Assembly: GCF_000010345.1 (NCBI RefSeq)
Contig: NC_009663.1
Location: 372,001-436,000 of the forward strand
Direction of reading: 5' to 3'
Source: Sulfurovum sp. NBC37-1
Lineage (GTDB): Bacteria > Campylobacterota > Campylobacteria > Campylobacterales > Sulfurovaceae
Length of the DNA: 64,000 nucleotides
Part shown: positions 25,325-54,998 of the stretch, in pieces
How positions within the stretch are numbered: position 1 is the stretch's first letter
Layout: every line of letters begins with the position of its first letter
The notes under the pieces: model-generated
Told to the model about the DNA's origin: nothing
What the model saw: only the letters and a program-made list of their open reading frames with translations
Databases searched by the model: none
Translations under genes and position numbers: made by a program

Positions 25325-26339
25325 GTTTGACTTCTTTGATGGAATAGGCTAATGTTTCTCCTGCATACATGGGGACTACGTCATTGTAGTCTGCCGGAAC
25401 TATGAAAGGTTTTTTCTCCAGAATGACTTCTTTTGCAACCGGGCTTATACCGTAGATACTTTGGGCATTTCCCGAAATGAATGCCTGCAGGTTGTCAAGT
25501 GCATCATGTGTTTCAAAAAGTTCGGTGAGTACCTGCAGGGCAATGGGTGCGGTAAAGACACCTGCCGCACAGCCGCAAGCCTCTTTGGCATGTTTTGGGT
25601 GCGGTGCGGAATCTGAGCCGAACATCACTTTGGGATGGGCTTTCAGCGCAACGTTCAGCAGTGCTTCCCTGTCCTCGGGACGCTTGGCGATGGGTTTGCA
25701 GAAGAGATGCGGCTGCAGCATGCCTCCTGCTACGTCATCGAGGGTAATGAGAAGGTGGTGTAAGGTGATCGTGGCATAGAGGTTGTCAAACCTCTCAAGC
25801 GCCTCTACGCTCTCCTTGGTCGTGATATGCTCCATGATGATCTTGAGTTTCGGGAACGCAGCAGCGAGTTTTTCGTAAATGGAGACGAACTCCATCTCCC
25901 GGTCCATAACGAAACCATTGGTCTCTCCGTGAATGCACAATGGGATATTCAGATCGCTCATCGCTTCAAGCGTTGGCCGCAACTCCTCTACGTCAAAACC
26001 GCTTACACCCCCTTCGGAATTGGTCGTGATCCCGGCAGGGTATAGTTTGATAGCCGTAAGTTCTTCTCTGAGGGATTCAAGAAATTTTCTATCATAATCA
26101 GGTTTGAAAAAGAGTGTCATGTAGGGGGTGAATCTTTCCTCGCCTACAGCTTCCATAATACGCTCTCTATAGGCAACGATCTCTTCTTCACTACTGACAG
26201 GCGGTACGAGATTGGGCATGATGACGGCACCGCTGAAGGTATGGGCGCTCTCTTTGGCAATATTGCTGAGCATCTCACCGTCTCTGAGGTGCAGGTGCAT
26301 ATCTAACGGGGCATCAAGTCTCACTGTTGTTGATGGCAT
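25317..26339 (-). CDS. pyrC: Dihydroorotase
   Basis: 340 residues from ATG 26339, preceded by AAAGGA at 5 bases (a TTG one codon upstream is less likely). Metal ligands: [10 protein letters not shown], the likely carbamylated Lys in [11 protein letters not shown] near 138, HITTKESVE and [14 protein letters not shown]. Class II dihydroorotase like E. coli PyrC. It cyclises N-carbamoylaspartate in pyrimidine synthesis. Its start overlaps the end of yidD by 26 bases in another frame. Confidence 0.96.
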
Positions 26340-26694
26340 CAAAATCCTTTATGACGTAATATTGCGAACGGGTTTCATCTTTGGGAACGAACCAGTAGAT
26401 AATTTTCATTTTGCCACAAAAAGCATTAAGGTTGCGTAAAGCATCGGGTTTTGGGGGTGCAAATGTAACGACCGGATAGTCTATGCCCCCGGGGAAAAGC
26501 TGGTTGCATCTCAAAACGCGCAGGGTACTGGCCGTCAATGCCTTATGGGGGGCATTGAATTCGAACTGCCACTTGGCATACTCGGAACAGGTAGGATAGT
26601 AGCGGCAGTTTGCCGGAAGCATTTTGGAAATGTACTGATACCCCCTGATCGGAGCCGTCCAGAATTTGCTGTTTTTTGGTCTGCTGTTTGCTAT
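26314..26694 (-). CDS. yidD: Membrane protein insertion efficiency factor YidD, probable AUA start
   Basis: Family core [17 protein letters not shown] then [10 protein letters not shown] and [18 protein letters not shown]. The first ATG in frame (26622) falls inside the conserved core and would delete the APIRGYQ.IS segment. The frame upstream contains no ATG, GTG or TTG before it runs deep into lnt. AAGGAG lies 6 bases before an ATA at 26694, which overlaps the lnt stop as ATAG, just as ATGA overlaps do. The gene probably starts at this AUA, giving 126 residues. The C-terminal 45 residues extend beyond the usual YidD length. YidD helps YidC/Sec insertion. Confidence 0.8.
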
Positions 26695-27992
26695 GGAATA
26701 CTCCTTGTCCGTCCGTTCTGTACGATGTATGACTCTGCCATATTGACAGCATGATAGATAGTGGTACCGTATTTTCTGCTGTAGTATTGTAACAGCAGTT
26801 TCTGCAAAGTTGGCTCAATGGATGGGGTGAACCAGCCGTTGTTGCTGAGAACGATCATATTCCTGGGTCGCCCTTCATAAAGTTTTTCAGAAGTCGCTTC
26901 AAAACAGATAGCGTTTCTATAGGTTATGTCGTTGACGGTGTAGTCGGTTACGTTGCTGTCTGCCTTGTAGTCCACGGCTCCGTCATAAAAGACTTTATTG
27001 ACCCAGTCACTGAGAAAGTCGGGCAGGGGGTTGCTCTCTCCAAAAGGGACCAGCAGGACCTTGTTGGCGATCCGGACCGTGCTGTCGGTAAAGATATAGG
27101 TGGAGTTTCTGGGGGTTTTGCCGTCCCAGTAAAGTCCGCCTGCAACGATAGATATCTTTCCCGACCTTTGTTCGAGTGCCTGCATCAAAGATGCCGAGCG
27201 TTTGAGGAATACCGGAAAGACCGATTCGGGCAGGATCACCAGACTTTTGTTCTCATCTATAGCTTTATCGATGGCGGTAAACAGGGTATTGAACTGTTGA
27301 GGATGCAAGGTTTTGTCCCATTTCTCTTCCACGCTGGTGTATGTCGTGACAATGCGAATATCTTGAGGAAGATTTATTGCTGTTGTGGACAGAGGCTGCC
27401 AGGCGAAAAGTACAAGAAACAGATAGACATACTGTTTTTTCCATAACGTCAATACAATACCGGCAAGGATAATCGCAAATTGCCACTTCTGTATACCGAA
27501 ATAGCTTTCAACGAAGATCAGTTCGGGCTTGAACCAGTCGAAGCCGAAAGGGTGGATGTAGCTTAGTCCCAAAAGGCCGAGGGCTTTCAGGCTCAGAGTG
27601 AAGAGTGTCGGTTTGAGTTGCATTGCAACACTTTTATTGATAGTTGGGATTTTTTCTGCCAGAAAAGCAATGGCCCAAAAGAGCGTGCCATAAAGCAGTC
27701 CCGTGACAATCACAACGATCGGAACAGCCCAGGGCATGTGGTAGTGGTTGAAGCTCAGGGCGATCCACCAGAACCAGAAAATACCAATGAAAAACCCCGT
27801 GACCGGCCAAATGGTTCTGTCGGCGGAGAGGAGCAAATAGAGAAAAGAAATCCCCAAAATCGAATTGAGCCAGAAGAGGGAAAATCCCCAGTGATCAAGG
27901 TAGATGAAGGCGGAACCGAGAAGAGCGGTGGTCAAGCCTCTTGTTAGTACAAAGGTGCTAAAATGTCTACGAAAATTTCTCAATTTACTCAA
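26691..27992 (-). CDS. lnt: Apolipoprotein N-acyltransferase
   Basis: About 433 residues. Several N-terminal membrane helices (to about residue 190) precede a nitrilase-like periplasmic domain with Glu in LPESVFPVFL, Lys in IANKVLLVPFGE and Cys in AICFEAT, the Lnt triad. It adds the third acyl chain to lipoproteins. The start is taken as TTG 27992, with AGGA six bases upstream and a normal basic-then-hydrophobic N-terminus; an in-frame ATG at 28025 would lie inside yajC. Divergent yajC begins at 28003, the same order as in Campylobacter jejuni. Confidence 0.88.
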   Translation of the reverse strand: MSKLRNFRRHFSTFVLTRGLTTALLGSAFIYLDHWGFSLFWLNSILGISFLYLLLSADRTIWPVTGFFIGIFWFWWIALSFNHYHMPWAVPIVVIVTGLLYGTLFWAIAFLAEKIPTINKSVAMQLKPTLFTLSLKALGLLGLSYIHPFGFDWFKPELIFVESYFGIQKWQFAIILAGIVLTLWKKQYVYLFLVLFAWQPLSTTAINLPQDIRIVTTYTSVEEKWDKTLHPQQFNTLFTAIDKAIDENKSLVILPESVFPVFLKRSASLMQALEQRSGKISIVAGGLYWDGKTPRNSTYIFTDSTVRIANKVLLVPFGESNPLPDFLSDWVNKVFYDGAVDYKADSNVTDYTVNDITYRNAICFEATSEKLYEGRPRNMIVLSNNGWFTPSIEPTLQKLLLQYYSRKYGTTIYHAVNMAESYIVQNGRTRSIP

Positions 27993-51417: not shown

Positions 51418-54260
51418 CTATTTGTACAGATTTCCACATTTATAGCGTTTGAACTCCTCTTTGCTCACTTTTTTTGCAATGACGCTGTTTCTCAGGTCGA
51501 GATAGTTTATCTTGGAGCAGTCATCGAGTCTGTTGAGTGCCGTGATCGTTTGGGAAATGACGGGCGCATCGTATTTCAGTAGTGCGCTCAGAGCATTGTT
51601 TCTAAGCATAGCATCATCGGAAGCAAGATATTCAAGCAGTACAGAGATGAACTTTTCACTTTGAGTACCTATACCTATAATATGGTTACCGTCCATATTG
51701 TAAAGCACGCTTGAGCGTACAGCACGCTCTGGGCTTTTGGAGAGGGTGACCATGCTGTCGATAACAAAATCCCGCCGGTAGGGAAGGTAAGCTTTGAAAA
51801 GTCCCATAACAAGATAGGGACTTTTATTGGTCTTTGACATATAGTGAAGTACAAAGATCTCTATTCTGGTATGGAGTATCTTCTTTTGGAGACTGCCTGC
51901 ATACTTCATCACAAAGTCAATATAAACCTTCGGTGTACTTGATGCTAGTTTTGAATCGTCCATATACGCCTGCAAGCGCTGCATGGCTATATCGAGTTCT
52001 GTAGAGAGGTTCACGGTCACATTGAGGTCATATAGTGTTTGAAAAGCTTTTTCTATCTTTGTGTTTACATTGTCCCTTTCATTGGTATACTGTTTTGTAT
52101 TCAGCAGTTCTTTGCGGCCTTGTAAAATAATTTTTTTTGCTTCTGCTGTTTTGAATGTTTTATATGCGAGCATCGCTTTTTTTGCGCGTTCTGGATCCTG
52201 TTCTTTCAATAGCGGAAAGATCTTTTCCCGAAGATAATGCAAGCTTTCCAAACTCTTCCAAAAAAGATCTAAATGTTTCTTTGCATCATCATAGGGCATT
52301 TTTTCTGCTGAGACCAGAAGGGCGTCATCATTGAGCGCATAGTGATCGATGATCTCCATGGCATACTTGTGACGTACTTTCTTACTCCTCTTAAGCCTCC
52401 GTGCCTTGCTGTAGAGGAATGTCAATAACGGTGCCGTTTCCAGAGAGCGGTCTTTCAAACTGCTTATGCGTGATTCAATAAATTTTCGGATCGATCTTGT
52501 AAAGGGGTAAGCACTCAGTATTTTGTAGTAGGCATTGTAGGCTTCTCCTGTTTTTGCCGTTTGAATGCCTTCAAAGAAGAGCGCCAGATCTTTTCTCGAT
52601 TTATTTCTGCTGAAACGCTTTAGCAGATCATAACGGTGCTGTATTGTGATCTGCTGCAAAAGACTGTTTTTGAACTGGTTGTTATCCTTCGGCTTAAGCG
52701 GCAGAGTAAATGTGTTGCTTTTTTGTTTCAACATTACCGTATTTTTGTCAGACAACAATGCCTCTACAATGTCAGGCCGGTACCATTTTTTAATGAGCTT
52801 ATCTGCTTCATCTATGTTTATTTTTTTGTTCTGTATTTTAAGGATATTGGGAATTACATTCCTCGAAGAAGCATTAAAGTATCCCTGGGGAGTCATTACG
52901 GCCCATTCCCCGTTTATAAAGTGATGAAAGGTTGCAAGTCTTACATTGTCTTTTTTTCGAAAAAGTATAAAATCTGTATTATTGTATGATGCAGTATATC
53001 GTGTTGCATGCTCACTGCGTGCAATTTTGAAATCGGAAGGATCATAGTGTGGCAATCTTTTCCATGTATCTATTTGAAAATAGTGTGTTTTGAGTGGAAA
53101 AGGTTTTTTTGTTCTGTAGCGGTCAGGCTGAGCACGCTGTTGTCCTCACTGAGTGCAATACTGTGATAAGCTACGATATCCTTGTATTTTGGTAGGTAGC
53201 TGAACAGTCCGGTTGTGATGTTGAAGTCCAGAATATTGTCCGTAAAGCCGGCAATAACAATGGCTCTGTCCTGATCTTTGAAAAAGTACATGCCGCTGGA
53301 CGGCACGGAATCGAACTCGGCGGAAACAGTCTGCTTCTGCCGTATGCTCCATATCTGTTCACCCTTGAGAAGGTTCCACCCGAAATACTGCTGTGTCGTT
53401 TTGCTGATGAGGTAGGGCATTTTGAATTCTGATTCATAGAAATATTGTGCTCTGAGTGGTCTTTGGTGCATATAGGTGATCTTTGGTGTAACCGATCTGC
53501 TTGCATTGAGTTCGGTTCTTGTCAGGTCTCCCGAGGCAAGGGAGTATTTGATGTCACCGCGCACCGTGCATATTTTGGTTTTTGGGGAGGTTTGGGAGCA
53601 GTCCCACCATCCGCGGATATCCTGCCACAGTTTGATCTCTTTCTTGTCACCTTCGGTCTCTTTGTTGCTTTGAATATCGTAAACGAAGATCTTCTGCTGG
53701 ATTCCGTCGTAGGTGTAGAGCCTGTCTTGCATGAGTTCACTTGAAGCGGAACGCTTTACAAAAGAGCTGATCTCTTTTCTCTGTCCCGTTCGTATGTCGA
53801 AGCGGTAGAGTATGGGTCTGCTGTATCCGGGTTTTGTCTGAGTATGTTCAAAAGAGTTGATGTATTTCCCGTCTTCGGAAAAGGAGGCGGACATTAATGA
53901 GTCATTGCGTCTTTTGTTTGGAATGGAAAAATCTTTAATATGTTCTCGTTTCCGAAGGTCATAGAGATAGACTTTGTGCATATCCTGTACGAGATAGTAA
54001 CGGTCATCTGCACTGAGGTCACACCCGTACCCTTTGTTGACATGTTTGATGGTTCTCATATGTTCAAGGTCCGATGCGTGCCAGAGGTCTATCCGGTCGT
54101 ATGTTCTGGTAATAACTGTTTCCCCGTCCGAAGTGATATCAAGACAGACCTGCTGCATTTCGTATGGTTTTAGCTGCAGTTGTGCCAGATGTGTCGTTTG
54201 CTGTTTTGCAGAAAGGGGTACAGCCAGGATGAAAAACAGAAAAAGTGAAATATATTGCAT
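51418..54260 (-). pseudogene. Beta-propeller (WD40-like) exported protein, split by a one-base frameshift
   Basis: Two minus-strand frames, 54260-53070 (396 residues, signal peptide ending at VPLSAK, YVTN/WD40-like blades such as GYGCDLSADDRYYLV) and 53055-51418 (545 residues). The second has no proper start. Its frame is open upstream to the A7 run (53104-53110) and reads KKPFPLKTHYFQIDTWKRL before PHYDPSD. With A8 the two join into one protein of about 947 residues. The second part begins with the element NGEWAVMTPQGYFNAS, then KKWYRPDIVEALL, which normally follows WD40 domains in one chain, then a helical repeat region. Frameshift, phase switch or sequencing error. Confidence 0.75.
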
Positions 54261-54419
54261 AAATGATCCTGACGATAAAATTATTTTTTATTAACGTTAG
54301 TATAGCACGAAGATATATTTTTTGTATGCATAGTAAGAGCGGAATATTTTGAATATATCTATATTTTTAACTCCAAAAGGTATAATATATCCAATATAAA
54401 TATCCCTGAGGAGAAGTCG

Positions 54420-54998
54420 GTGAGTATTCAAGATGATGTAAAGTATGTCAAGAGTGAATTGAGTGGTGATGAAAAGATATTGGAGAGCGCCTTCAAGCTT
54501 GAGACACTCTACAAAAAATATAAACTTCTGATCTGGGGTGTTGCAGCGGCAGTGCTTCTGTTCTTTGTCGGAACCACGGCGATGGAAGCCATTCGTGATG
54601 CCAGGCTGGAAGATGCGAACAATGCATTTTTGACACTGCAGAAAAAACCTGATGATGCTTCCGCACTTAAGACACTCAAAGAGAAAAACCCTGAGCTTTT
54701 TGAACTGTTCACTTTTTCGCAGGCAGCCAAAAAACAGGATGCCGGAGCATTGAAAGCATTGACTTCAAGCAAGAATGAGGTCATTGCCGATTCCAGCAAA
54801 TATGTGACTGCAACGCTTGAGAGGAAAGAGGCAGAGAGTAAACTTTACAAAGAAATGGCTGACCTTGATGATGCGTATCTCGCACTGAAAGCCGGAAACA
54901 TTGCCCATGCCAAAGAGAAACTGGAACTGATAGACGAACGTTCCGCTGTTGCGCCGATCGCAGCACTTCTGAAACATGCAACACTAAAGGTAAAATAA
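54420..54998 (+). CDS. YfgM-like membrane-anchored TPR protein
   Basis: 192 residues from GTG 54420 with GAGGAG upstream. A short cytoplasmic N-terminus, one membrane helix (about 36-57, LLIWGVAAAVLLFFVGTTAM) and a helical periplasmic domain. The layout is that of YfgM/AncA, which associates with the Sec translocon and periplasmic chaperones. It is followed without a gap by a BamB-like gene, the same pairing as yfgM-bamB in E. coli. Sequence similarity alone is modest. Confidence 0.65.
   Translation: MSIQDDVKYVKSELSGDEKILESAFKLETLYKKYKLLIWGVAAAVLLFFVGTTAMEAIRDARLEDANNAFLTLQKKPDDASALKTLKEKNPELFELFTFSQAAKKQDAGALKALTSSKNEVIADSSKYVTATLERKEAESKLYKEMADLDDAYLALKAGNIAHAKEKLELIDERSAVAPIAALLKHATLKVK

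Follow-up and report, generated by a model that had tools for sequence, protein, structure and literature searches.

The minus strand of Sulfurovum sp. NBC37-1 (source genome a complete single contig of 2,562,277 bases) carries, within the 64,000-nucleotide stretch analysed here (the window), two coding frames, A and B, which overlap at a run of seven adenines (A7, Table 1). The frames are open together for 73 nt (53145–53073), in which the A7 run is the sole homopolymer of five or more bases; frame A stops 10 codons past the run, and the TTG at which frame B could first start lies 14 nt beyond that stop. Read through into B, with an X placed at the joint, frame A yields a chain of 947 residues, confirming the claim of an earlier note on this DNA that the two minus-strand frames join into a protein of this length across the A7. 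The note had also held that frame B is open through the joint and codes ahead of its TTG, and this is borne out, the segment in question encoding QIDTWKR.

Table 1. Features of the split gene and its site (positions in the window)
Feature	Position	Strand	Remarks
Frame A	53070..54260	minus	396-aa ORF from ATG; signal-peptide-like start (by eye), WD40/propeller-like
Frame B from first start codon, TTG	51418..53055	minus	545 aa; GEW..TPQGYFNAS..WYRPDIVEALL module, then long predicted-helical region
Frame B, part upstream of TTG	53056..53145	minus	open back to TGA at 53148
A7 run at the joint	53104..53110	minus	exact sequence position
In-frame heptamer A_AAA_AAC	53103..53109	minus	frame A codons CAA AAA AAC
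Weak 8-bp hairpin directly after the heptamer	53055..53102	minus	−5.9 to −7.0 kcal/mol alone
Stretch that most relatives examined lack between mutS2 and the gene after it	51418..54361	no strand	locus comparison

Codon usage favours frame A in all 150-nt blocks of 54260–53211 and in the 30-nt blocks of 53180–53121, and clearly favours frame B from 52910 onward. In the intervening blocks the signal is ambiguous or close to zero, such that codon usage alone places the shift site no better than to about 200 nt. At −3.3, the energy of the ribosome site at the TTG falls short of the −3.6 reached by the best quarter among 3000 random positions. The window holds 48 A7 matches, the run at the joint among them, where 31 are expected; as A7 or T7 occurs in 4.3% of the window's 73-nt stretches, the presence of such a run in the shared stretch is only moderately unlikely by chance. 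The window has 51 same-strand neighbour pairs, and in 21 of them the open frames overlap in different phase. A run of seven or more within the overlap occurs in the A/B pair alone, which also has the latest downstream ATG or GTG (173 nt past the upstream stop). Elsewhere in the window, the minus-strand frame at 26314–26720 (102-aa ORF from ATG), which we take to be YidD-like, seems to code upstream of its first ATG, GTG or TTG, overlapping the end of the preceding gene.

Further A-runs lie within the same gene. The longest, an A8 (52131–52138), exceeds the A7 of the joint and is undisturbed inside frame B. Six runs of A7 or more, one of them the joint, fall within 51418–53118, against a mean of 3.08 in synonymous shuffles (61 of 2000 shuffles equivalent, P 0.03). 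An exact 15-nt direct repeat links the joint (53104–53118) to 52821–52835, 283 nt away, with an A7 in each copy and no occurrence elsewhere in the genome. Shuffles of the region held an exact repeat of this length in 0 of 300 (dinucleotide), 14 of 2000 (codon) and 1 of 500 (synonymous) cases; as a clue to the origin of the break the repeat was set aside, 20 of 123 window stretches of equal length holding one.

An accessory site beside mutS2

The split gene is accessory. In tallies that count the source genome itself, frame B has matches in 2 of 60 relatives, a two-row profile in 2 of the 78 genomes in the genus and 3 of 398 from the order (a drawn sample), and frame B alone in 3 of 397 phylum genomes (also drawn). 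Beyond the relative in Sulfurovum sp. AR described below, the order and phylum matches cover the module region only; plasmid records gave no match.

The neighbouring mutS2 was matched in 38 other genus genomes, of which 29 loci were compared. The gene at 54420 lies within about 110 nt of mutS2 in 21 of these, is separated from it by 205, 384, 632 and 1226 nt in four, and is absent from the fetched flank in the other four. Eleven junctions were read as sequence, and in ten a stretch like TTTTTAACTCC..GGTATAATAT, ahead of the 54420 gene, closely trails mutS2; in the window this stretch picks up again near 54362, once the insert has ended. At the eleventh junction (L042) there is another insert. 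Three relatives have inserts other than the split gene at this place (384 nt in L042, 1226 nt in L046 and 632 nt in L047), so that the mutS2 junction may take up DNA repeatedly.

Relatives of the two frames

The sole relative found over the full length of frame B forms the C-terminal portion of one 1020-aa frame in Sulfurovum sp. AR (L015:7868–10930; the same match recurs in L050, NZ_AJLE01000001.1). A tblastn search of genome contigs with a two-row alignment found Sulfurovum sp. AR alone (E 4e-27), and frame B by itself found no relative in those contigs. Identity to the C-terminal half of the AR protein is 27% over module and helical region, and the B-like part is preceded by some 470 residues, a length in keeping with frame A. 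Frame A resembles the AR protein only weakly, not enough to make it a proven relative: a forced alignment gives 23%, a single comparison gives pieces of 37 and 45 residues (E 8e-4 and 0.014), and a search with frame A among 60 relatives returned its own genome alone and not that of AR. Near the AR homologue, L015:4168–6291 encodes a 707-aa protein with, by eye, a kinase-type domain followed by Sel1-like repeats.

The module offers a second view of the arrangement. A same-order genome holds two intact WD40-caspase genes (L013:3844–7020 and L014:3746–6880, PF00656 over cut-off) in which WD40 repeats are followed, in one chain, by GEW..TPEGYFNAS..(Y/F)RPDIV, as the earlier note had anticipated for its TPQGYFNAS and YRPDIV elements. 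Over the module, frame B matches them at E 1.7e-9 and 5.1e-9 (four-sequence database) and at E 8.1e-9 in the genome search. Together with L012, a WD40-like gene ending soon after the module's first part, these intact genes indicate that the module's place is after a WD40 region of the same chain. We also noted module matches in a third gene of the genome G410 and in G587, and, in the order-level search, further matches with stops nearby; a second WD40-like gene beside a WD40-caspase gene (L013:1–2451, cut by the locus end) carries, by eye, the variant GFFTAS..FYRPDLI, and the L012 gene (7768–9630), which ends just inside the module, sits between large genes with RTX-like repeats (by eye).

Similarity across the joint itself adds nothing to the score. 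The BLAST alignment of the read-through chain with L013 does cross it (residues 368–507, joint at 386), at 48.9 bits against 49.3 for frame B alone; with a profile of four relatives the read-through span scores 61.7 bits against 61.9 for the start of frame B, such that the end of frame A contributes no gain. Shuffled versions of that end scored at least as well as the real one in 24 of 200 cases, and 7 of 200 spans with it shuffled reached the real span; Pfam matched neither a fragment across the joint nor either of its halves. One chain is hence the best reading on grounds of layout, not of similarity at the joint. As the counterpart of B lies within a single AR frame and the module follows WD40 repeats in one chain, one gene has very probably been broken into A and B, and we infer that the two formed one chain in this strain's ancestor. 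The earlier note's suggestion of a single protein is in this respect supported by the AR frame; homologues encoded as two genes at this joint, which it named as the contrary case, were not seen, one full-length relative of B having been found.

Causes of the break

Frame B is reached from frame A by a −1 step (the A7 being phased CAA AAA AAC), so that a DNA indel, a ribosomal −1 slip or an RNA polymerase slip could each bring it about. To the following account we give roughly an even chance: a one-base change at the A-run, most likely from slipped-strand replication, put an accessory gene whose product was probably exported out of frame, and the gene is now off or dying. An ordinary one-base slip is favoured because the AR relative carries the second half inside one unbroken gene. 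Slippage during replication of the run would have left a one-base indel and with it the loss of frame; ribosomes translating the gene as sequenced would make a 396-aa propeller piece ending at the frame A stop, and frame B, given its lack of a signal peptide by eye and its poor TTG start, would probably hardly be translated. The gene would then be switched off, or be a young pseudogene that has yet to gain a second lesion. MutL was not detectable (no PF01119 match in the genome, against matches in 11 of 14 controls). The genome does have a MutS_I match over cut-off (L053, G000:C1:45422–45757), in a 421-aa open frame, a length that looks short for a MutS. Counting against a slip are this MutS_I match, the weak similarity of frame A to the AR protein, the absence of a profile gain from A's end, the undisturbed A8 and the expectation of PMC3711429 discussed below, as well as a sample of one sequence of the split gene, owing to which the slip was not itself observed. 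The earlier note was right to point to a homopolymer at the joint; the causes it listed (phase variation, transcriptional slippage, sequencing error) lacked both the plain one-base mutation favoured here and ribosomal −1 frameshifting.

A sequencing or assembly error, with a tract of another length and an intact gene in the living strain, is unlikely: the genome is complete in a single contig and was, we presume, obtained by Sanger sequencing, which seldom errs at an A7. On the other side, the break is a single lesion in 2.84 kb of otherwise open coding frames, and we rank error first among the rivals because, for singletons of this kind (unclustered frame transitions validated by BLASTp), PMC3711429 expects sequencing errors and not indels. 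Reversible phase variation, in which the run would change length within the population and switch the full protein on and off, appears less likely still. A change of length at this position, within the 73 nt of shared open frame, does alter the frame; MutL is not detectable, short poly-A tracts vary in Campylobacter (PMC5133587 and PMC5530802), and runs of A7 or more are in excess in the frame B stretch (six against the shuffle mean of 3.08, P 0.03), although these may simply reflect lysine-rich, A-rich coding. Seven is short, however, and the unusually long tract of slipped-strand phase-variable genes was not found in this gene, in which the joint has one of the window's 48 A7 matches and the longest run, the A8, lies elsewhere; nor was a second sequence with another tract length found.

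Recoding, by which a ribosomal −1 shift on A_AAA_AAC or an RNA polymerase slip on the A-run would yield a useful amount of the 947-aa protein, we consider very unlikely. The heptamer stands exactly in frame, a −1 step from it enters frame B, and an insertion sequence with A_AAA_AAC is a proven case in PMC4066793; the heptamer, however, arises automatically once one A is lost at this phase. No SD-like motif lies 6–17 nt upstream (the nearest ends 34–35 nt away), and the hairpin of Table 1, at 0 nt after the heptamer, falls outside the rules given in PMC4066793 (4–10 nt, 7.6 kcal/mol); with flanks it reaches −7.6 (z −1.66), and 12 of 200 shuffles fold as well. According to the same source, such stimulators (SD-like motif, downstream structure) do not accompany every known −1 frameshift, and A_AAA_AAC is inefficient in E. 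coli, despite which IS elements use A_AA.A_AA.C. PMC5009743 ranks A_AAA_AAC well below A_AAA_AAG and reports efficient slippage at runs of nine. The AR relative moreover needs no shift: conservation of the frame change was not seen, the one full-length relative of B examined being a single frame. Two genuine genes, with B translated from the TTG and perhaps coupled to A, are the most remote of these explanations. They would accord with the 14 nt between the frame A stop and the TTG and with a profile match that begins at frame B residue 22, which is the TTG residue itself; BLAST similarity to L012 nevertheless begins at residue 12, the relative of B is fused behind some 470 residues, the ribosome site at the TTG is poor and B has no signal peptide by eye.

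The intact protein and known systems

Frame A scored below the cut-offs of the Pfam propeller models (best E 1.5e-4), and neither frame matched the PF00656 caspase domain at E up to 1. The helical region of frame B matched no Pfam, NCBIfam or PADLOC model above cut-off, and no defence-system model was hit at E up to 0.1 by the window halves or the AR relative; the sole match among solved structures, Filamin-B at E 0.14, we take as chance. With AlphaFold2, the alignment of the AR relative and both window halves gave a mean pLDDT of 46.2, and that of frame B and its relative 53.5 (strands then helices, at low confidence); the two models were of too low a quality for fold searching, and only the order of strands followed by helices was used. 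The signal-peptide-like start (by eye), the WD40-like repeats below Pfam cut-offs and the low-confidence helical region suggest that the intact protein may be an envelope scaffold that binds other proteins.

A one-base slip would make the broken gene an ordinary one, such changes in A-runs being documented in this phylum. For annotation, the finding is useful as a correction: what is predicted as two proteins should probably be treated as the halves of a single one. It also points to a small family of probably exported proteins (two genomes here) whose linker module is shared with WD40-caspases. Should the tract prove to switch, a free-living bacterium would have a poly-A contingency gene, and such switching could then be studied outside pathogens. 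A bolder reading, which we regard as very unlikely, makes the A-run a two-state device: in one state the exported propeller stands alone, and in the other, reached by DNA slippage or by a −1 shift at A_AAA_AAC, it carries the module and a long helical arm in the same chain; were this true, it would define a family in which a helical solenoid replaces the catalytic end of a WD40-caspase-like layout.

A DNA indel has the best precedent among the causes considered. In Campylobacter pgp1, from the same phylum, one-base changes of an A7–A9 tract break the gene: across 859 genomes the tract is A8 in 830, A9 in 20 and A7 in 9 (PMC5133587), and one mutant went from A8 to A7 (PMC5530802). For pgp1 the tract was compared over those genomes and the phenotype was tested, whereas the split gene is represented by a single sequence and showed no switching. 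The bacterial −1 frameshift genes (X_XXZ_ZZN) of PMC4066793 likewise have an in-frame heptamer and a −1 step, but here neither stimulator fits the rules of that paper and the shift is unconserved. The uncharacterised AR protein resembles A+B in overall length and order, in an unbroken frame where ours is split, its N-terminal part weakly similar to frame A; its gene sits at a different genomic site, the mutS2 site of that genome being empty (L035). WD40-caspase (Peptidase_C14) genes carry WD40 repeats and then the module that frame B shares, where in A+B the repeats ahead of it are WD40-like below Pfam cut-offs; they differ in that they end in a caspase domain where frame B has a helical region instead, such that the module would link the propeller to a catalytic end in those genes and to the helical region, standing in that place, in this one.
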